DNA from: Mayamaea pseudoterrestris
Taxonomy: Eukaryota; Bacillariophyta; Bacillariophyceae; Sellaphorales; Sellaphoraceae
NCBI GenBank assembly: GCA_027923505.1
Contig: BROI01000001.1
Span: 2,930,719 to 2,994,718, forward strand
DNA length: 64,000 nt
Direction of reading: 5' to 3'
Under the pieces are notes generated by a model. The model was not told where the DNA came from and did no database searches. It was given only the letters and a program-made list of their open reading frames with translations. Below are positions 24,987-55,821 of the stretch, in pieces. The position numbers were made by a program, and so were the translations under genes. Position 1 is the stretch's first letter, and every line of letters begins with the position of its first letter.

Positions 24987-26804
24987 ATGACGCTTACCGT
25001 TTCCTTGCTCGACTATGGCGCCGGCAATGTGCGATCCGTCCGCAACGCAATTCTTTCACAGGGAGTCAACTTGATCGACATTACCGAGCCTTCGCAAATT
25101 CTGCAAGCTGATGCTATCATTTTCCCTGGAGTTGGAAGTTTTGGATCCGCCATGCGCGTGCTAAAAGACAAGGGCTTTGATGGTCCGCTGAGAGAATACT
25201 TGAAGGATCACAAGCGACCCTTTCTTGGCATCTGTCTCGGCATGCAAACACTCTTTGAGTCTTCTGATGAACAATACGAAGACGGCCCTGATACAGATAC
25301 TGCCATTCCTGGACTGGGTGTCATTCCTGGCAAGGTTGTTCGATTCGACTCAACCAAAATGGTGGTTCCACACATGGGATGGAACGGTCGGATTTTGCAC
25401 CAATCTAGTCCAGTCATGCAGCACGTCGACAAGGATGACCAAACTTACTTTGTGCACTCTTACTATGCTCCCATTACTGAACAAAATAAGGAATGGGTCT
25501 TGGCGAGCACAACTTACGGTGGACAAGAGTTTATCAGTGCCGTGCAGCGAGGTGCGGTGGTGGCGACACAGTTTCATCCGGAAAAGAGTGGATCAACTGG
25601 CCTGCGAGTCCTGCAGGGGTTTTTGGAGGTGAGTTTATGGTCGTGGCTTTTTGGAAACGAGGAAAAATTGAGTCTACGGTGCGACTACTCTATCTGCCAT
25701 TATGCTGCAACATGTCAAGCTCATTCATCTGCTTTTGTGAAATAATAGGCTGTCGAAAATGGCACATTGGAGACAACGACTCAATTAAAAGTTGATCCAT
25801 CCGCAGAGACGCAACTTGTCAAACGTATAGTTGTCGCTCTCGACGTTCGGACCAACGATCATGGCGACTTGGTCGTTACCAAGGGTGATCAGTACGATGT
25901 TCGCGAGAACCACAAGGAGGGTGTGCAAGAGGGTAGTCGCGGGGGCGTTCGAAATTTGGGCAAACCAGTTGGACTGGCGCGTCGGTACTATGAAGAAGGT
26001 GCGGATGAAATTGCGTTTTTAAACATTACCAGCTTTCGACAAGGCGTCGTCGAGGATATGCCCATGCTTCGCGTCTTGGAAGAAGCATCCCAAAACATTT
26101 TTGTTCCGCTGACGGTCGGTGGAGGCATTCGCGACTATACAGATGATGCTACAGGGCAAACATGGTCCGCTTTGGAGGTGGCTGCCGAATATTTTCGAGC
26201 TGGTGCCGACAAGGTGAGCCTAGGCAGCGATGCGGTCCATGCATCGGAAGCGTTCATCGCGTCAGGAAAAGTCAAGACTGGAAAAACGTCCATTGAAATG
26301 ATCTCGCGAGTGTACGGTGCTCAGGCTGTAGTTATTTCTATTGACCCGAAGCGCGTTTATGTAAAATCGATGGATGATGTCAAAAATGAAAAGCACGTTG
26401 TCGTGGAACTGGAGAAGGACGAAGCGGGTCCGGATGGCGAGCGACTATGCTGGTACCAATGCACCGTGAAAGGTGGCAGAGAAGCGCGAGATATATGTGC
26501 CGTCACAGTGGCCAAAGCATCTGAAATGCTGGGTGCTGGAGAAATAATGCTAAATTGTATAGATATGGATGGGCAATGCAAAGGATACGACATTGCTTTG
26601 ATGCGCGCTATTTCGGATGCTGTGACTATTCCTGTCATTGCCAGCAGTGGTGCAGGGCTACCAGAACATTTCTCACAAGTGTTCGAACGTACACGAGTTG
26701 AGGCTGCCTTAGCTGCTGGCATGTTTCATCGCAAAGAGGTTGAGATAGAAGCTGTAAAGGACCACATGCGGTCATGCGGCTTGCCGACACGTAAATATTC
26801 ATGA
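24987..26804 (+). CDS. HISHF: Imidazole glycerol phosphate synthase, bifunctional HisH-HisF
   Basis: Predicted exons 24987-25628 and 25749-26804 (565 residues); intron 120 nt, GTGAGT/ATAATAG, phase 0, placed between the two domains. It converts PRFAR plus glutamine to imidazole glycerol phosphate and AICAR, linking histidine and purine synthesis. The N-terminal glutaminase has [11 protein letters not shown], nucleophile Cys in LGICLGMQ (~83) and FHPEKSG with the catalytic His (~197). The C-terminal cyclase barrel has [27 protein letters not shown] and [10 protein letters not shown]. The fused architecture is as in yeast HIS7 and plants. No transit peptide is visible: the protein starts directly with the glutaminase. 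Confidence 0.96.
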
Positions 26805-38199: not shown

Positions 38200-38409
38200 G
38201 GTGCAAGAATATACAAGGTAAATACAAGGCGATGGAAGGATGATCAAGAAGAAGCAAAAGCCTTTCGATGCTCCAGTTGATGCTGGTTGATCGCGACCGC
38301 GACGAAACTGACGGACGCACGGGGTGCGATCGAGTTGAGGATTCCGGATTCCATCAACGCTGCGACGCTGCGCCGTTCGTCTCACTTTTTCGTTGCGCGC
38401 GTTTCGACC

Positions 38410-39420
38410 ATGGCCAACCTTCGCCGCTGCTTAGCTCCGGCTCTTGTCTCGATGCTCGCATCATCATGCGAGGCTTTCGTGTCGCTTAACAAGCCTACTA
38501 TTCGCATGACGCGGGCGTCGTCGTCGTCGTCTCTTTACTCTACGGAAGAAACCGTGGCATTTTCAAAGTACCACGGCTTGGGAAACGATTTTATTCTCAT
38601 TGACAATCGTCAGCAATCAGACCCGTCGCTATCACCGCAACAAGCCGCTCATATGTGTCATCGCAACTTTGGAGTTGGCGGCGATGGCGTCATTTTCGCC
38701 TTGAAGCCGCCTTCCGACCAATTTGACGTTGGCATGCGCATTTACAACTCGGATGGTTCAGAACCTGAGATGTGCGGCAATGGCATTCGTTGCTTAGGAC
38801 AGTTTTTGAGAGATCTTGATCCGCAGACGAAAGGAACCACGACGACTTACAACATTCATACACTGGCTGGCTTGATTCGCCCCGTCATGAATGCCGACGA
38901 TGAAACTATTACTGTTGACATGGGCGAGCCGATTCTATCGGCTGCCAAGGTGCCAACGACGCTTGCGGCGAATGCAAAGGACGACTCGGTCGTTGAGCAA
39001 GAGTACGAATGTAATGGCAAGACTTGGAAAATATCTGCCGTAAGCATGGGTAATCCGCATGCGATTATTTTCGTGAATGATCTTGAACACGACTTTGACT
39101 TGCACAAGGACGGGCCAGCTTTAGAAAAAGCTGCAGTTTTTCCGGCCAAGACGAATGTAGAGTTTGTACAAGTCGTTTCGCCAAACCATTTGAAAATGAA
39201 GGTATGGGAGCGCGGCGCTGGACCAACGCTGGCTTGCGGAACTGGTGCATGCGCCTTGACGGTGGCTGCCATTCGCGCCGACAAAATCCCTCGCGGCAAT
39301 GGACCAGTGCGAGTGACGCTGCCCGGCGGAGACTTATTCATTGAATGGAAGGAGGAGGACAATCGAGTCTACATGTCGGGGCCTGCGACGTTTGCGTTTG
39401 AAGGCGAGGCGAGAATATAG
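38410..39420 (+). CDS. DAPF: Diaminopimelate epimerase, plastid-targeted
   Basis: 336 residues. It converts LL- to meso-diaminopimelate in lysine biosynthesis by a two-cysteine, PLP-free mechanism. Both catalytic cysteines are present: EMCGNGIRC (~120) and LACGTGACA (~275). FSKYHGLGNDFILID and RNFGVGGDGVIF are further family motifs. The start has a signal peptide (LRRCLAPALVSMLASSCEA) followed by FVSLNKP, so Phe at +1 and then a Ser/Arg-rich transit region: plastid import is predicted. The frame is open further upstream but only from a TTG, so ATG 38410 is used. Confidence 0.95.
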   Translation: MANLRRCLAPALVSMLASSCEAFVSLNKPTIRMTRASSSSSLYSTEETVAFSKYHGLGNDFILIDNRQQSDPSLSPQQAAHMCHRNFGVGGDGVIFALKPPSDQFDVGMRIYNSDGSEPEMCGNGIRCLGQFLRDLDPQTKGTTTTYNIHTLAGLIRPVMNADDETITVDMGEPILSAAKVPTTLAANAKDDSVVEQEYECNGKTWKISAVSMGNPHAIIFVNDLEHDFDLHKDGPALEKAAVFPAKTNVEFVQVVSPNHLKMKVWERGAGPTLACGTGACALTVAAIRADKIPRGNGPVRVTLPGGDLFIEWKEEDNRVYMSGPATFAFEGEARI

Positions 39421-39903
39421 AGGGCGCTGCTGACAATGCAGCGAGCGGTGGTTGCATTAACGAAAAGGTCGCTTGCTAGATTGACAGCCACGTACTTGTG
39501 TACATTAGGCTGCGTTGCATATATATTCGTTACATCTTTAATGGGCATCTGTATGCGCGATGCGATTGCAGACCGAAGTGCGCCGGCGCCAACATCTACA
39601 TGCTCCATCGTTTTTTCCTAACTGTAAATATGTACGATTTGCTATCGAATGCGCGATGCAATTGCAGACGGGCGTCCGCCAGCACCAACATCTACTTTTA
39701 CTCTCACTAACGCTGTTGCGCTATATTCTGCGATTGCGGAGCGACCTCCGACACAACATCAATTCATCAAGGCCAAAGCGTCATTGTTCTTTGTTCGCCC
39801 TAAGACTCTACACTAATAATCATCTGTAGTAATTATAAATATTTGCTTAATCAATTACGATTACACGGTTCCATATATGAGTGTTGCATATAGCGCCAAC
39901 AAT
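39421..39903. other. Convergent 3' intergenic region with diverged repeats
   Basis: 483 bp between the convergent DAPF and silicon transporter genes. No gene is supported. It contains two clear and one weak copy of an imperfect ~50-bp repeat, listed separately. AT-rich toward 39900. Confidence 0.4.
39550..39770. repeat. Imperfect ~99-bp-spaced direct repeats
   Basis: Copy A (about 39551-39600) and copy B (about 39650-39697) share atgcgcgatgc(g/a)attgcagac and cgcc(g/a)gc(g/a)ccaacatctac. A weak third copy lies near 39728-39765 (tctgcgattgcggag...acaacatc). Spacing is close to 99 bp. The origin is unknown; no terminal repeats suggest a transposon. Confidence 0.6.
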
Positions 39904-42900
39904 TTACGGGGTGACTGGCTCGTCGACATCGGCGTCCGCCTCTTCGAGATCCAATTCGCCTTCCTTCTTGGCAGCAGCAGCGCGCTGTTCCGAAGTTCCG
40001 ACAAAGACTTCATCAAGCTGGTAGCCAACAATGTCCTTGTGAATCAACGCAAGAAGCCATGCGGCGGAACAAACGCCAGTCGCCTCAAGCATGAGGCATA
40101 GACGGATGATCAAGTACACAATTGGATTCGAAAGGAACGCAACGGGGAATGATGAGGCAATGATGCGCCAAGCAAGTGATCCGACAATGGTTGTAATGAC
40201 GGCTCCAAGCAATCCAGTGTTAAAAAAGTTTTGAAGCCCGTCGCTAACACCGAAAATGTTGCCATCTCCAACGACCACATTGAGGGTGGTTATGCGAGCA
40301 ACAACAAACATGCAGACCGTAACACAAACTTGGCGGCCAATCAAAAAGGCTTGAAGATTGCGGCCAGTAAATGTCAATTGGCAAGTCTTGTAAGCCATGG
40401 CATGGTTCTTCAATTCCTCCTCTGGCAAGTTGACGACGGCAAACAGAGCAATCTGCATACCCTCCATCATACCGACAAAACACATGAGTACAAAGAAGAC
40501 AACAACAGAGACAGCTGATGGAACCCCGGCCCACATGGTAGTCTTCTGCTGGAACAGTGCTCCAAGTGTGACGGCAAACGACAAGACCAAAATGACAACC
40601 GAAAACAAAACGCGAACCCAGAAAAACGTCTTTTGTACCGGCGAACGAGGAGGCTCGTTTGTCGCAATCGGCTGTCGCGAAATCTTGGCGAAGAAGATCT
40701 GGACAAGGTAGACGGAATGCAGAAGACCCGAATACTCAATGAAAAGCGAGACATATGTTGTGAAAAGCATGAAGTAATTGTTGATGAAATCAAGCATGCA
40801 GTTGGCGGCGTTGACTTGAGCGGTGAGCTGGCCGAGCATGATGGTCATCAAAATCGTCGCCAATCCGGAGCCGACAAAGATCTGGAGCATTGCATCCGAC
40901 AAACCCAGGACTTCGGTTCCAGGCAAGGCTGCAGCGCACATGTTAGTAACAAAGACAACTAACACGACGAGAAATTGTCGACCGACGATGAAACGCTCCA
41001 TGTTGTCTCCTTTGTGCGCAAGCTTGGTGTTCTTCAGGGCTCGTGGATGGCTTTCAGCGTAAAGCTCCTTGTCAATCGGCTGCAAGCCAACCAAGGCGCC
41101 TTGGCCTCCTTCCATCATGGCAAGCCAGCAAATGACGAAGAGCAAGAGGAAAAAGGCAACAAGCGGGTGCGACTGCGATGAGATCTTGGTTTGCTCCGTG
41201 AAAATGGCAGCCAACACGACCATGACGGAAAACACAAGCAAGCCAAGCGAGTAGGCGTACTTGACAACAGTGACAGTAACATCAATGTCCTTGTCGCGGC
41301 GGGTAACGGGAGCTTTGGTGTGACGAGGCGCATCCTCGAGGTAAACCTCGTCGGGTTGGAAACCGACCATCAACTTGTTCCAGCGACCAAGCACCCAGGC
41401 GGCAGAGCAAAGGCCACTTGCCTCGAGCAAGAGACACAGACGGATGATTAAGTAAATCATTGGATTCGAAAGGAAGGCAACCGGGAAGGACGAAGCAATG
41501 ATACGCCAGGCCAATGAAGCAACAATCGTTGTGATGATAGCTCCAAGCAGGCCCGTGTTGAAGAAAGCCTGGACGCCGTCACTCACTCCAAACATGTTTC
41601 CCTCGCCAATGACGACGTTCAGCGTTGTGATACGGGCGACAACAAACATGCACACAGTCACACAGATCTGGCGACCAATCAAGAAGGCTTGCAGGTTCTG
41701 GTCACGGAACGTGAGTTCGCAGTTAGTGTAGGCGATGGCATGGTTCTTCAGCTCTTCCTCTGGCATATTCACGACGGCAAACAGAGCAATCTGCATGCCT
41801 TCCATCATTCCAACGAAGCACATCAGGATGATGAAGACAACAACAGAAACCGCTGGAGGAACGCCGTCCCACATGGTTGTCTTCTCTTGGAAGAGAGCGC
41901 CGAGTGTAACCGCGAAAGCAAATCCGAGGACGAGGCAAGACATGAGGACTCGTGCCCAGAAGAAGATGTTCTGAATGAATGTGCGAGGCTCTTCCTTGGA
42001 TTCGATTGGCGTGCCGGTGACCTTGGAGAAGAAGAGCTGTACCAAGTACACTGAATGGACGAGTCCAGTCATCTCGATGAACAAGGCAACGTAGGTCGTG
42101 AAAAGCATGAAATAGTTGTTGACAAAGTCGAGCATGCAATTGGCGGCATTTACTTGAGCAGTGAGCTGACCAATGTTGATGGCGATCAAGATCAAAGCGA
42201 TTCCTGTTCCCAAGAAAATGTCGTTGACAGCCGACGGTAGTCCGAGTACTTGAGCTCCCGTGACGGACGACGCCATCATGTTGGAGACGAACACAACCAG
42301 GACAACCAAGAACTGACGACCAAGAATGAACCGTTCCATATTGTCGCCCTTGTGTGCGAGGGTGGTATTCTTGAGCGCCCGCGGATGGCTTTCAGCATAC
42401 AAGGACTTGTCGACAGGCTGAAGACCGACCAAAGCTCCTTGACCTCCTTCCATCATGGCGAGCCAGCAAATTAAGAACCAAAAAATGAAGAAGGCAGCGA
42501 TGGCGGGAATTCCCTTGCTGACTGCGCTTGACTGGCCGGTAAAGATTGCCGCCATTACCATGATCAGAGCAAAGGCCAACAGGCCGAGAGAGTAAAGGAA
42601 CTTGAAGACTGTAACGAGGCGGTCAATGTCCTTGTCGCGACGGGTTACCGGCTCGGATCCATGCGGTTCGGCGCCTTCAAGATGAACCTCGTCGGGCTGA
42701 TAGTTGACAAGAGGCTTGTGGTAGCGCGCCAAGACCCACGACGCAGAGCACACTCCAGACTTTTCAAGCATCAAGCACAAGCGAATGATCAAGTAGACAA
42801 GCGGGTTGGACAAAAAGGCAACCGGAAACGAGGAAGCGACAATGCGCCAAGCGAGCGACCCGACAATGGTTGTGATAATGGCACCAAGCAACCCTGTGTT

Positions 42901-44214
42901 GAAGAAGTTCTGCAATCCGTCACTGACTCCAAAGATATTGCCTTGCCCAACCGTCACATTGAGAGTAGTAATGCGGGCAACGACAAACATGCAAACGGTG
43001 ACGCAAATCTGGCGGCCAATCAAAAATGCTTGGAGATTTTGGTCGCGGAAGCAAAGCTGGCAAGTCTTGTGCGCCATGGCATGGTTCTTTAGCTCCTCCT
43101 CAGGCAAGTTGACAACAGCAAACAAGGCAATCTGCATTCCTTCCATCATGCCGACAAAGCACATGAGCACGAAGAAAACGACAACCGAGACGGCCGATGG
43201 CACTCCATTCCACATGGTCGTCTTCTCTTGAAACAAGGCAGCCAAGGTAACAGCAAACGCATAGCCCAAGACGGTCAAAGAGAGCAAGACGCGTCCCCAA
43301 AAGAGCAAGTTCATGGCGCCGCTTCGCGGAGGCTCGTTCGACTCGACTGGCTTGCCCGTCAGCTTGGCAAAAAACATTTGAACCAGGTAAACCGAGTGCA
43401 AGAGACCAGACATTTCAATAAAGAGCGACACGTATGTGGTAAAGAGCATGAAGAAGTTGTTGATGAAATCAAGCATGCAATTCGCCGCGTTCACTTGCGC
43501 CGTGAGCTGTCCGAGCATAATCATGACGAGGATCAAGGCAACGCCCGAGTCAAGAAAGACCTTGGTGACTCCGCTTGGGAGGCCGAGCACTTCGGCGCCA
43601 GCAACTGAGGAAGCCATCATGTTGGAGATAAAGACAACCAAGACGACGAGGAACTGACGGCCAATGATAAAGCGCTCCATATTGTCTCCCTTGTGAGCAA
43701 GCTGCGTGTTCTTGAGGGAGCGAGGGTGACTCTCCGCGTAAAGCGTTTTGTCGACAGGCTGGAGTCCAACCAAAGCTCCTTGTCCGCCTTCCATCATGGC
43801 CAACCAGCAGACGAGGAAGCAAAAGATGAAAAAGGCAGCGACTGGCGGAATTCCCATCGTCGACGTTCCAACCGTTTGCGAGCTGAACATGGCCGACAAA
43901 ACAATGACGAGCGAAAAGACCAAGAGCCCCATCGAGTACAAGTACTTGAGCGACTCAATGCCCGATCCAATCACCGAGTGCGTTCCCTTGATCGAGTTCT
44001 TCTTGTCGCCATCCTTGCCTTCGCCTGGAAAGTGCTCAAGCTTGCCGTCAGCGTCGGCCTGCGGAAACACCTTGCCCTCGTGCAACACCTCCTCGGAAAG
44101 GTCGCCAACGCTCGCCTCGTCGTCGTCGGCACTTCCATGCGCTTTGAAAGGATTGTCCATGCCGAGGGCGGCGGCGTCCTCGACGAAAATCATCTTTTCT
44201 TGATTCTCCGACAT
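39904..44214 (-). CDS. SIT: Triple-module silicon (silicic acid) transporter, three fused SITs
   Basis: 1436 residues, one exon. SITs are diatom membrane proteins that take up silicic acid, coupled to sodium, for frustule formation. A single SIT has ten TM helices with two motif pairs, EGxQ then GRQ. Here the whole unit occurs three times: about residues 84-515, 525-965 and 975-1410. Each has MEGGQGALVGLQ with (I/L/V)GRQFLVV, then MEGMQIALFAVVN with IGRQ(I/V)CV. All twelve motifs are intact. Modules 2 and 3 start with VTRRDKDID linkers. About 30 TM helices are expected. The cytosolic N-terminus (~80 residues) is acidic and the C-terminal tail is short. ATG 44214 is used, as the upstream frame has only a TTG. 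Confidence 0.95.
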   Translation of the reverse strand: MSENQEKMIFVEDAAALGMDNPFKAHGSADDDEASVGDLSEEVLHEGKVFPQADADGKLEHFPGEGKDGDKKNSIKGTHSVIGSGIESLKYLYSMGLLVFSLVIVLSAMFSSQTVGTSTMGIPPVAAFFIFCFLVCWLAMMEGGQGALVGLQPVDKTLYAESHPRSLKNTQLAHKGDNMERFIIGRQFLVVLVVFISNMMASSVAGAEVLGLPSGVTKVFLDSGVALILVMIMLGQLTAQVNAANCMLDFINNFFMLFTTYVSLFIEMSGLLHSVYLVQMFFAKLTGKPVESNEPPRSGAMNLLFWGRVLLSLTVLGYAFAVTLAALFQEKTTMWNGVPSAVSVVVFFVLMCFVGMMEGMQIALFAVVNLPEEELKNHAMAHKTCQLCFRDQNLQAFLIGRQICVTVCMFVVARITTLNVTVGQGNIFGVSDGLQNFFNTGLLGAIITTIVGSLAWRIVASSFPVAFLSNPLVYLIIRLCLMLEKSGVCSASWVLARYHKPLVNYQPDEVHLEGAEPHGSEPVTRRDKDIDRLVTVFKFLYSLGLLAFALIMVMAAIFTGQSSAVSKGIPAIAAFFIFWFLICWLAMMEGGQGALVGLQPVDKSLYAESHPRALKNTTLAHKGDNMERFILGRQFLVVLVVFVSNMMASSVTGAQVLGLPSAVNDIFLGTGIALILIAINIGQLTAQVNAANCMLDFVNNYFMLFTTYVALFIEMTGLVHSVYLVQLFFSKVTGTPIESKEEPRTFIQNIFFWARVLMSCLVLGFAFAVTLGALFQEKTTMWDGVPPAVSVVVFIILMCFVGMMEGMQIALFAVVNMPEEELKNHAIAYTNCELTFRDQNLQAFLIGRQICVTVCMFVVARITTLNVVIGEGNMFGVSDGVQAFFNTGLLGAIITTIVASLAWRIIASSFPVAFLSNPMIYLIIRLCLLLEASGLCSAAWVLGRWNKLMVGFQPDEVYLEDAPRHTKAPVTRRDKDIDVTVTVVKYAYSLGLLVFSVMVVLAAIFTEQTKISSQSHPLVAFFLLLFVICWLAMMEGGQGALVGLQPIDKELYAESHPRALKNTKLAHKGDNMERFIVGRQFLVVLVVFVTNMCAAALPGTEVLGLSDAMLQIFVGSGLATILMTIMLGQLTAQVNAANCMLDFINNYFMLFTTYVSLFIEYSGLLHSVYLVQIFFAKISRQPIATNEPPRSPVQKTFFWVRVLFSVVILVLSFAVTLGALFQQKTTMWAGVPSAVSVVVFFVLMCFVGMMEGMQIALFAVVNLPEEELKNHAMAYKTCQLTFTGRNLQAFLIGRQVCVTVCMFVVARITTLNVVVGDGNIFGVSDGLQNFFNTGLLGAVITTIVGSLAWRIIASSFPVAFLSNPIVYLIIRLCLMLEATGVCSAAWLLALIHKDIVGYQLDEVFVGTSEQRAAAAKKEGELDLEEADADVDEPVTP

Positions 44215-45397: not shown

Positions 45398-45985
45398 TTA
45401 CGTTTCCTTCTGTAGCTTGCTCAATATATCATGGACCAAATTCTTCATGACTGGTTGGCCTCGACTCGTCTTTTGTTGTAAAAGTTCTGTTCGCTTTTTA
45501 CGATGAGCCAGTGCGCGATGCCGCTCCTGTTCCTGCTTCTTTTGTTCCTTCTTGATGCGATCGGCATCTGCCTGCTTCTGTTCAGCTTTTGTTTTGGTGG
45601 ATTCCTTGGCATGCTTCTTTGATGTGTCCTTTGTTACATTTGAAACGTTCGCTTCCTGGTCTACCTCCTTGTTGCTGTTATCTGCCTTGTTGTCCTCTTG
45701 TTCGTTGTTGTCTTCTGCTGCTGCTGCCGCCACGACACGTCGTCTCTTGGCTCCAGTCCCTGGTTCATAGCCATGCTTTTGCATGACCTTTTTATACTGT
45801 CGAAGCTCCTTGGACGTATGTAGACGCTTCTTTTCCTTGCGCTTGCGAAATTCCTGGAGCGCCTTGACGGGGCCAGTCGTTTTGGTGGCGGAACTGCCTG
45901 TCAGCAGCGACGGCATTCTGCGGCGATGGTTGCTGGTGCTATCATTATTCCTGTTAGATGTTGTTGGACGTCGATTGTCGGACAT
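45398..45985 (-). CDS. FYV7 / CCDC59-like ribosome biogenesis protein
   Basis: 195 residues, highly basic and helical with a Lys/Gln/Glu-rich coiled region. The C-terminus TSRGQPVMKNLVHDILSKLQ matches the RGQPxMxxxIxxLLxKI ending of yeast Fyv7 and human CCDC59/TAP26, factors of rRNA processing in the small-subunit pathway. An internal LHTSKELRQYKKVMQKHGYEP also fits this family. The middle contains an Ala run and an acidic low-complexity insert. The ATG at 45985 is the only in-frame Met near the N-terminus. The assignment rests mostly on the C-terminal motif. Confidence 0.65.
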   Translation of the reverse strand: MSDNRRPTTSNRNNDSTSNHRRRMPSLLTGSSATKTTGPVKALQEFRKRKEKKRLHTSKELRQYKKVMQKHGYEPGTGAKRRRVVAAAAAEDNNEQEDNKADNSNKEVDQEANVSNVTKDTSKKHAKESTKTKAEQKQADADRIKKEQKKQEQERHRALAHRKKRTELLQQKTSRGQPVMKNLVHDILSKLQKET

Positions 45986-46311
45986 GGTTACTATTTTCTC
46001 GTTAACGCCGACTGTCAGTTCCAACCACAGACAATCTGACGAGCAAAGAAATTGGAGGAGTGATGACTGCGAGAAAGCAGCGCTGATTGATCATGGTCAA
46101 GTCGAGGTTCGCAAAGCGTGACTGGTGACGAACGAAATTGGCGCGAACGGACGACGGACAGACGCTGTCGAGGAACGTGACGGCGAACGTTTCGATTTAT
46201 TGCGCGCAGTGATAAGAGCAGCATCTAGCATCTACAAACCCATCTGCACCTCTATTGAACTTGTCTTGCCTTCGAGACTTGACTTGGAAACGTTTTTTAA
46301 CAAGCAGCATC
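45986..46311. promoter_or_regulatory. Divergent region between FYV7-like and MTRR-like genes
   Basis: 326 bp between divergent starts. The MTRR frame is open upstream to 46255 only from TTG. Nothing specific is recognised; presumed promoters. Confidence 0.3.
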
Positions 46312-53399: not shown

Positions 53400-55211
53400 T
53401 CATTGAAGCGATGCCGGAACAAGGTCAACAGCCTGATTGCTCCAAAGGGACTCTTGTCGACCTAGCCGCCGTAGTTGATCACTGTCATGGCTTACCCAAA
53501 GTATGCTTGTCTTTTGATCAGATGCGAGCTGTTGAAGAGTATTCTCAACACGCTGTTTTGATTCATCGTCAAGCGAGTTCGTAGACTCGTCTAGCAGCAA
53601 CACCCGTGGTTGTGACGCCACGGCAATGGCCAAATATATCCTCTGTGCCTCCCCTCCCGATAAATATTTCCATTCCGAAGCTAAAAGAGTCGTATCCAAT
53701 CCCCATTGTGTCATAAAGTGCTGTGCACTAGCTATCATGGTGTCATGCGTAGGCGTGTTTTTGTGCGACCAAGATTTCAATCCACAAATTTGCTCAATAA
53801 AGTGGCTGGGTGTACCGGGAATGTCAACTTTGTGTTGAGACACGTAGCGGACCTGTCGTCGCCACTCTTCAGGCGAAGTGAAGCTGTGTTGACTCCTTCC
53901 TTTGAAATGTACCTGACCGCCATCCTCATCTGGTGCAGTTAGCCACGCCAAAATACGCAACAGCTGACTCTTTCCTGCGCCTGATGGACCCACCAGAGCA
54001 AGCATAGCACCCTCCTCTAAACGCACCGAAAGATTCTGAAAAAGCAGTCGCGCTGATCCTCGACTGTCGCAGCTATTGTTGGAACAGGTGTCATCATCAT
54101 TCCTTTCTTTTGCTTCAAACGATTTCGACAATCCCTTGATCTCAAGAGCTGATAACGAGAGGCGATTGGATTCTTGTTTGATGTCGATATCGGTTTGTCC
54201 AAGCGCAAAGATCTCAAGGTTTGCTTTTTTTACGATAGCTTCTGCCGCCAACGCTGCGGAAACATCGGCATTGCCAGGGAGCAACGTCAGACTTTCATTG
54301 ATAGGTTCATCCAATACAGGCTTGCTAGCAGATCGCGATAAAAGTCTTGCAAGTGACACCCCCATTTTTCGGGTTCGCTCCAAGAAGTTGAGCTTTTTGG
54401 GCCGCTTCAAGAATTTGTCGACGCGAAGCATGTGACTCTTGGCGTCAAATCCAGCAGTTCGTACGATCCAGACTTCCAAAAGAATTGTTCCAAACGCCGA
54501 CATGGCGATTAGGTATAGGATAAGCATTTGGTATTTCGCCGCTTCAAATGGTGGAGTTCCTCCCAATATCTGTCCAGTCATCATTCCAGGTATCGAAATG
54601 AGTCCAATTACCGCCATGCTATTCAAGAGCGGCATGGCACCGATGCGAATCGCTTCTTTGATCAATCGACTTGAAGCTTCTTCTGGTGTGGCGCCAAATG
54701 CCAGTAACATTTCGACTTCATTGGATTGCTCCACTAGGCTGCTTAATGCCGTATTCAGTGAAAGCGCCACACCATTGATGCAGTTTCCAAGCAGCATGCC
54801 AGTGATCGGAATGACGTACTGCGGCTCCCAAACTGGTGTCGGCCGTAGTATGACTCCAAACGCCCAAGCGCATGCCAGCGCCGTATTGACGGCAAAGGCG
54901 CAAAATACTCCAGCAAGCATGCCATGAAAGTAGTAGGCCGATCGTGCCGACGCTTCCAGTGCAGCCAACGTGACCATGAAGAAGACGTAGAGAATCACCA
55001 CCCACCATCGATCATGTCCGTAGTTAAAGATTGGCGCGAGAATGGCTCCGAGGACGGAAAGTTGCACAAGAGTACGAATGACACCGACAACAATGGGACT
55101 TTCGACGGCTAGTCCCATTCGATGGGAGACGTAGGCCAGTCCAAGCAAGGGTGCAATCGAAAGTAGCAGCGATTGGTTGGATACTTGAATGAGGCCTTCT
55201 TCGGCAAACAT
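53400..55211 (-). CDS. Fused FetB-FetA-type ABC transporter (UPF0014 permease + ATPase)
   Basis: 603 residues. The N-terminal ~290 residues match the UPF0014/FetB (plant STAR2/ALS3) permease: ESPIVVGVIRTLVQL, AALEASAR, GMLLGNCINGVALSLN, LAFGATPEEASSRLIKEA, SIPGMMTGQILGG. After a ~90-residue polar linker, residues ~385-600 are an ABC ATPase: Walker A GPSGAGKS (~407), signature LSGGEAQR (~514), Walker B VLLLDES (~533) and SHDSD (H-loop, ~573). In E. coli FetA and FetB are separate and export iron; in plants STAR1/STAR2 give aluminium tolerance. One chain with both halves would dimerise to form the transporter. The frame's upstream TTG is ignored in favour of ATG 55211. Confidence 0.9.
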   Translation of the reverse strand: MFAEEGLIQVSNQSLLLSIAPLLGLAYVSHRMGLAVESPIVVGVIRTLVQLSVLGAILAPIFNYGHDRWWVVILYVFFMVTLAALEASARSAYYFHGMLAGVFCAFAVNTALACAWAFGVILRPTPVWEPQYVIPITGMLLGNCINGVALSLNTALSSLVEQSNEVEMLLAFGATPEEASSRLIKEAIRIGAMPLLNSMAVIGLISIPGMMTGQILGGTPPFEAAKYQMLILYLIAMSAFGTILLEVWIVRTAGFDAKSHMLRVDKFLKRPKKLNFLERTRKMGVSLARLLSRSASKPVLDEPINESLTLLPGNADVSAALAAEAIVKKANLEIFALGQTDIDIKQESNRLSLSALEIKGLSKSFEAKERNDDDTCSNNSCDSRGSARLLFQNLSVRLEEGAMLALVGPSGAGKSQLLRILAWLTAPDEDGGQVHFKGRSQHSFTSPEEWRRQVRYVSQHKVDIPGTPSHFIEQICGLKSWSHKNTPTHDTMIASAQHFMTQWGLDTTLLASEWKYLSGGEAQRIYLAIAVASQPRVLLLDESTNSLDDESKQRVENTLQQLASDQKTSILWVSHDSDQLRRLGRQESLWSNQAVDLVPASLQ

Positions 55212-55821
55212 CTTGATCGTTGATGTCGTTCTCTTAATTGACTTTTCAATGAGTTTGTGCACTGACTGTCGTTCGCGTCGTCCAAGAAAGGCTCGTCCCA
55301 AGAATTGCGATCGTAATAACCGATGGGTAAACTGCCTCGTTAACGGGTGACGCCAGTCCTCGCGAGTACCTCGTTGTACCTCGTGCTCACTCCAAATTCT
55401 GTGCCTTGAATGTTTTTTCCTCGCCTTTGAGGTCGACTACGCTTGCACAAGTTGCTTGTTTTGTGAGATGTGTCTTTGCCAAATGATCAATCTGGCGATA
55501 AAGATGCGCAAATTGTGGATGAATAAGCAAGCCGCGAGCGGAGTGATGGATGCGATAAGAGCGCATGCGGTCGCGTGCTCTTGAAGGCACATCTGGGTCA
55601 CAGAAGTGTAGAGCAGCGTCGACTGTACATCAAAGAGTGCGGTGAAAAGAATGAAACGTGTGCGTTATCCACGAGTATTCAGTCTTGGTACGACATGAAA
55701 ACACCGGGTTCGTTAGCATCCCTGACGCGTCAATCAAATTGTGCAGTGCTTTCTCGCACCATGATGCCAAGGCATCTCTACTTTTGATCAAGTCGAGCTT
55801 TCCAAACTGACCAAACATATC
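55212..55821. other. Region between FetB-FetA fusion and GPLG-repeat gene
   Basis: 610 bp that must hold the promoter of the FetB-FetA fusion gene and probably that of the next plus-strand gene. It also contains the possible two-exon minus-strand gene listed separately (55387-55818). Nothing else is recognised. Confidence 0.3.
55387..55818 (-). CDS. Possible two-exon small protein of unknown function
   Basis: Tentative exons 55818-55692 and 55622-55387 (about 120 residues), intron 69 nt with GTACCA and TGTACAG ends. Exon 1 reads MFGQFGKLDLIKSRDALASW and exon 2 DAALHFCDPDVPSRARDRM followed by a long helical, His-containing stretch. The composition is protein-like, but I recognise no family. 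Its ATG would lie only 3 bp from the ATG of the divergent plus-strand gene at 55822, so one of the two starts, or this gene, may be wrong. Low confidence. Confidence 0.3.

Follow-up and report, generated by a model that had tools for sequence, protein, structure and literature searches.

The diatom Mayamaea pseudoterrestris encodes three complete silicon transporters (SITs) in tandem in a single open reading frame (ORF). The frame lies in a stretch of 64,000 nucleotides of contig BROI01000001.1 (assembly GCA_027923505.1, positions 2,930,719 to 2,994,718 of the forward strand), hereafter called the window, and its product is referred to as the triple SIT. On the sequence evidence set out below, we consider it very probable that the triple SIT is a multi-SIT made of three complete units that lie in parallel, with cytosolic junctions, an old fusion and a 1:1:1 output of its units; this judgement leaves aside whether the chain is cut after translation, which is weighed separately. 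The fused architecture as such is already published, and what is new here is the age of the modules.

On the minus strand of the window, positions 44214 to 39904 form one open frame of 4311 nucleotides and 1436 residues, running from ATG to TAA with no internal stop. The mechanical ORF call begins 8 codons further upstream, at a TTG; we used the ATG as the start. The Pfam family PF03842 (Silic_transp) matches the protein in three stretches with 1753.2 bits, well above the curated family cut-off of 26.8 and too high for a chance match to be a concern, and with three complete SIT units, where at least two per reading frame define a multi-SIT, the protein belongs to that class. The 1436-residue frame and the three PF03842 stretches thus bear out an earlier note on this DNA, which had described a fusion of three complete transporters in a single reading frame. 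That note had also reported every EGxQ and GRQ motif as intact, and indeed 12 of 12 were found, six of each, as two EGxQ-GRQ pairs per unit (EGGQ at residues 142, 589, and 1035; EGMQ at 358, 805, and 1251; GRQ at 185, 400, 632, 847, 1078, and 1293). The motif CMLD occurs once per unit, at residues 246, 693, and 1139. When the modules were compared by tblastn with the whole window, the only matches below E 0.1 were those of the modules to themselves and to each other, and a PDB sequence search with the SIT at E values up to 1 found no relative.

A simple hydropathy scan, which is a crude method, gave 31 segments, distributed as 10 in module A, 10 in module B, and 11 in module C. Because the number of helices per module is even, all three modules would have the same orientation. 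From the hydropathy scan and the published ten-helix model, we picture the modules side by side, with the N-terminal tail, both junctions, and the C-terminal tail facing the cytosol. Each module is probably a working silicic acid transporter of the SIT type, for which the literature describes a ten-helix unit coupled to sodium, and one message would supply the three transporters, which differ slightly, at a constant ratio of 1:1:1.

The modules resemble each other closely as proteins, with identities of 74.7% (A and B), 73.5% (A and C), and 72.4% (B and C), from which the earlier note had suggested a recent triplication or gene conversion. The silent sites contradict this. Identity at fourfold sites is only 0.25 (AB), 0.34 (AC), and 0.30 (BC). 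At residues conserved between modules, leaving out Met and Trp, codons agree in 113 of 312 (AB), 132 of 305 (AC), and 117 of 298 (BC) cases, which in all three pairs is the level obtained when codons are shuffled within each amino acid (z = −1.1, +1.25, and +0.5, respectively). The longest runs of exact DNA identity are 16 (AB), 23 (AC), and 26 (BC) nucleotides, where shuffles average 19.0, 20.5, and 18.3 (p = 0.78, 0.33, and 0.09). The synonymous divergence between modules, a check that the earlier note had put forward, is saturated and speaks against a recent origin: with NG86, nonsynonymous divergence (dN) is about 0.20 in each pair, while synonymous divergence (dS) is 3.7 (3.73) for AC and not finite for the other two pairs. 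Saturation mostly defeated the standard dS methods, YN00 giving an error in all three pairs. Residues common to two modules only number 43 (AB), 37 (AC), and 27 (BC), with no significant departure from a star (p = 0.16).

Since the silent sites are saturated while the proteins stay 72–75% identical, the modules appear to be held by purifying selection. Judged by the silent sites, the high protein similarity of the modules is a sign of constraint and not of youth, and we infer that the triple fusion is old, with each module kept by purifying selection. Strictly, the silent sites date the divergence of the modules; that the fusion goes back just as far would be a further step, which we favor because published multi-SITs are spread widely. 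Synonymous codon use differs between modules A and B (p = 0.005) and not between A and C (p = 0.28) or B and C (p = 0.08); for example, Phe is encoded by TTT and TTC 20 and 12 times in module A, and 8 and 28 times in module B (41308–43983, minus strand). The A–B difference is one of three comparisons, and we draw no conclusion from it.

Recent triplication or ongoing gene conversion could account for the high protein identity between modules and for the identical blocks at the junctions described below. It is nevertheless very improbable, given that the silent sites are saturated in all three pairs, that no identity run is unusually long, and that the 27 nucleotides encoding the junction block differ silently at 3 positions. 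We hence rejected recent triplication and recent gene conversion on the silent sites; conversion in the very distant past is possible. It is just as improbable that the assembly mis-joined three separate tandem genes. The longest exact identity between modules, at most 16–26 nucleotides depending on the pair, is short for a mis-join and makes one unlikely; moreover, both junctions are in frame, resemble each other, and match the published junction motifs. Several observations weigh against an old, parallel arrangement of three units. The value for the longest B–C run (p = 0.09) leaves room for a very old exchange between modules. The same holds for a runs test on the order of the residues shared by two modules, which was borderline (p = 0.056); it makes such an old exchange possible, whereas any recent exchange long enough to be detected is excluded. 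The eleventh hydropathy segment of module C is weak (mean 1.32, cut-off 1.25) and, if real, would place the C-terminal tail outside. Finally, the mean predicted local distance difference test (pLDDT) score of AlphaFold models was only 34.4 for module A (3 rows) and 32.9 for a stretch of two modules (2 rows), and these models were not used.

In the hydropathy scan, the junction loops that connect the modules span 55 (A–B) and 56 (B–C) residues. The earlier note had called their VTRRDKDID linkers near-identical; they are identical, starting at residues 523 and 970. All 10 residues of PVTRRDKDID are shared by the two junctions, compared with 4 of 11 residues before and 4 of 8 residues after this block in a manual count. 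As the block stayed identical while its flanks came to differ, the junction itself is probably under selection for some role. The 3 silent differences in the DNA encoding VTRRDKDID indicate that the identity of the block does not look like recent copying. DKDID, which has the DXDID form, occurs at residues 527 and 974 only, where units meet; neither end of the protein has it. The second published junction motif, YQXDXVYL, is represented by the close variants YQPDEVHL, FQPDEVYL, and YQLDEVFV, with no exact copy of the formula. The block is absent from the N-terminal tail of module A, and the C-terminus ends in DEPVTP followed by the stop codon.

The EPVTP end can be set beside the EPVTRR and APVTRR of the junctions: at the DNA level, the stop codon could sit where a junction once continued. 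When the tail was shuffled, PVT came to lie among its final five residues in 0.1% of cases; this test was chosen after the motif had been seen. A remnant of a fourth module was sought and rejected, as neither the 3′ flank, inspected by eye in three frames, nor tblastn of the window yielded further SIT sequence.

Table 1. Parts of the triple SIT and adjacent genes (window coordinates)
Feature	Position	Strand	Basis or remark
Whole triple SIT open frame, 1436 residues, ATG to TAA	39904..44214	−	ORF, Pfam, motif scan
N-terminal tail ahead of module A (residues 1–77)	43984..44214	−	Acidic, without junction motif
Module A (residues 78–522)	42649..43983	−	Full PF03842 unit with EGGQ, GRQ, CMLD, EGMQ, GRQ
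Module B (residues 523–969, including junction block)	41308..42648	−	Full PF03842 unit
Module C (residues 970–1436, including junction block and C-tail)	39907..41307	−	Full PF03842 unit
Junction loop A–B (residues 484–538)	42601..42765	−	By hydropathy; contains YQPDEV and PVTRRDKDID
VTRRDKDID block, junction 1 (residues 523–531)	42622..42648	−	
Junction loop B–C (residues 931–986)	41257..41424	−	By hydropathy; contains FQPDEV and PVTRRDKDID
VTRRDKDID block, junction 2 (residues 970–978)	41281..41307	−	24 of 27 nucleotides same as junction 1
Final five residues, EPVTP	39907..39921	−	Like start of junction block (EPVT/APVT) without RRDKDID; likeness spotted post hoc
DAP epimerase with N-terminal extension	38287–39420	+	
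rRNA-processing protein	45398–46024	−	

Whether the chain is cut into separate transporters or persists as an intact 30-helix chain is a question on which the evidence is about evenly balanced. The triple SIT could be a polyprotein, cleaved at both junctions to give three ten-helix transporters from one message, and we rate this a serious candidate, slightly short of probable. The cut could fall at DXDID, where the authors of PMC6114903 proposed cleavage by a caspase-type protease, or after RR, by an arginine-directed protease of the metacaspase type. Cleavage would fit the presence of the block in both junctions and its absence from the N-terminal tail of module A and, past PVT, from the C-terminus. 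It would also fit the occurrence of DXDID at the unit boundaries of 43 complete multi-SITs (PMC6114903) and earlier work on Synedra acus, cited in the same paper, in which a band was seen at 64 kDa and none was evident at 94 or 152 kDa. The diatom enzyme PtMCA-IIIc cleaves after arginine (PMC8455989), so that the RR next to DKDID becomes a candidate site alongside DXDID. Recombinant PtMCA-IIIc was roughly three orders of magnitude less active on a caspase substrate than on VRPR, which speaks against DXDID as the site for that enzyme; in favor of DXDID, P. tricornutum extracts had some caspase-type activity that was unblocked by a metacaspase inhibitor (PMC8455989). If an enzyme of the metacaspase type acts on the triple SIT, the RR inside PVTRR would be the likelier cut site. 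A more specific version, in which a calcium- and redox-regulated protease of this type would cut the membrane polyprotein after PVTRR and set the amount of SIT released, with the three units at 1:1:1, seems to us rather unlikely. A literature search, with subscription journals mostly outside its scope, found no earlier proposal of a metacaspase cut at the RR of multi-SITs. Against cleavage in general, the authors of PMC6114903 do not exclude function without processing.

The other possibility, to which we likewise give a little less than an even chance, is that the 30-helix protein stays whole as a concatemer, with its modules side by side and perhaps acting together or sorted as a unit, in which case the junction block could be a binding or topology element. 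An even helix number would allow successive modules to take the same orientation, and all three modules are conserved. By the positive-inside rule, positive residues are expected at the cytosolic anchor of a helix, and the RR immediately precedes helix 1 of the following module, as it would for such an anchor. However, the first helix of module A comes without the PVTRRDKDID block, so the block is not needed for insertion, and the western blot of Synedra acus, with 64 kDa only (cited in PMC6114903), argues against an intact chain.

Proteins of this kind have already been described. One passage of Marchenkov et al. (2018; PMC6114903) counts 46 multi-SIT genes, and another, following Durkin et al. 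(2016), counts 48 full-length proteins in 17 species of diatoms. Multi-SITs are known from diatoms of both marine and fresh water, with centric, multipolar centric, and pennate forms represented, and from one ciliate; Synedra ulna has SIT genes with three modules (PMC6114903). In diatoms, most SIT genes encode a single SIT domain, and in Parmales many encode two (PMC10328945). The earlier note had placed multi-module SITs in araphid pennates, which is correct as far as it goes and too narrow given this distribution. The multi-SITs of Synedra (SaSIT-TRI, SaSIT-TD, and SuSIT1-3) have three or two PF03842 units per frame and share with the triple SIT the motifs CMLD and GXQ, the junction motifs DXDID and YQXDXVYL, and a length of ~440 residues per unit; SuSIT3 has 1416 residues compared with 1436 here (PMC6114903). 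By the published description, the other diatom multi-SITs have the same layout as the triple SIT (PMC6114903). Modules A and B of the Synedra proteins are described as highly similar and module C as distant, from which the authors inferred relatively recent duplications (PMC6114903), whereas all pairs of modules in the triple SIT have diverged to a similar degree (75, 74, and 72% identity) and have saturated silent sites. The Parmales SITs also have tandem PF03842 domains, but two of them with 20 helices rather than three (PMC10328945). Ordinary diatom SITs have one module per protein, a ten-helix unit that carries two EGxQ/GRQ pairs, as each module does here (PMC5100055).

The ten-helix SIT is derived from five-helix units, and SIT-like proteins occur in a few bacteria (PMC5100055). 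Our searches beyond the diatoms returned little. Two scans of viral contigs gave 1 and 22 pattern matches and prokaryote genome contigs gave 92, none of which was confirmed (by tblastn for the viral contigs), and phage records gave no match. PF03842 was found in 0 of 5 cyanobacterial genomes in a first search and in 1 of 386 genomes from one cyanobacterial phylum, where the match is weak (32.2 bits, cut-off 26.8) and lies in an open frame of 219 residues covering profile positions 18–159 (142 of 513). Because the same search gave a score, below the cut-off, in 1 of 14 control genomes, weak PF03842 matches carry little weight. The lone match may be one of the bacterial SIT-like proteins that PMC5100055 describes, and it is too short to root or date the SIT modules.

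Other genes of the window include those for an Rpc34 subunit and an RRM_2 protein, a eukaryotic gene content that, together with the triple SIT, agrees with a diatom or a closely related silicified stramenopile. Between the stop codon of the triple SIT and the diaminopimelate (DAP) epimerase gene lies a direct repeat of 47 nucleotides in two copies, 85% identical and 96 nucleotides apart (39553–39695, plus strand). The best prokaryote relatives of the DAP epimerase in one scan were nearly all titled cyanobacteria, with 53–59% identity; its N-terminal extension resembles a plastid-targeting presequence by its motif. At 53403–55301 (minus strand), a UPF0014 membrane domain and an ABC_tran ATPase domain are joined in one frame. 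In plants, a pair of this type consists of two proteins, STAR2 and STAR1, which are tied to aluminum tolerance; a literature search by titles and abstracts found no report of the fusion in diatoms. At 24987–26804 (plus strand), a frame for a class-I glutamine amidotransferase precedes a His_biosynth frame, with which it is in phase, at a distance of 21 nucleotides; the two are possibly one HisH-HisF gene with an intron, and plants and fungi have a fused HisH-HisF enzyme. A scan for promoters and terminators gave 4 versus 3.7 expected and 3 versus 6.1 expected, respectively, and was disregarded; it uses bacterial consensus sites.

Silicon uptake by diatoms drives the silica cycle, and the literature consulted, in the sections available, offers no settled explanation for the fusion of some SITs. 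The processing question is sharpened by the finding that the conserved junction block has RR beside the published DXDID, together with the ability of a diatom metacaspase to cut after arginine. The triple SIT further indicates that a gene of three modules, fused throughout or at least sharing one frame now, can persist until silent sites are saturated with all modules intact, and this persistence favors selection for the arrangement over a passing duplication.

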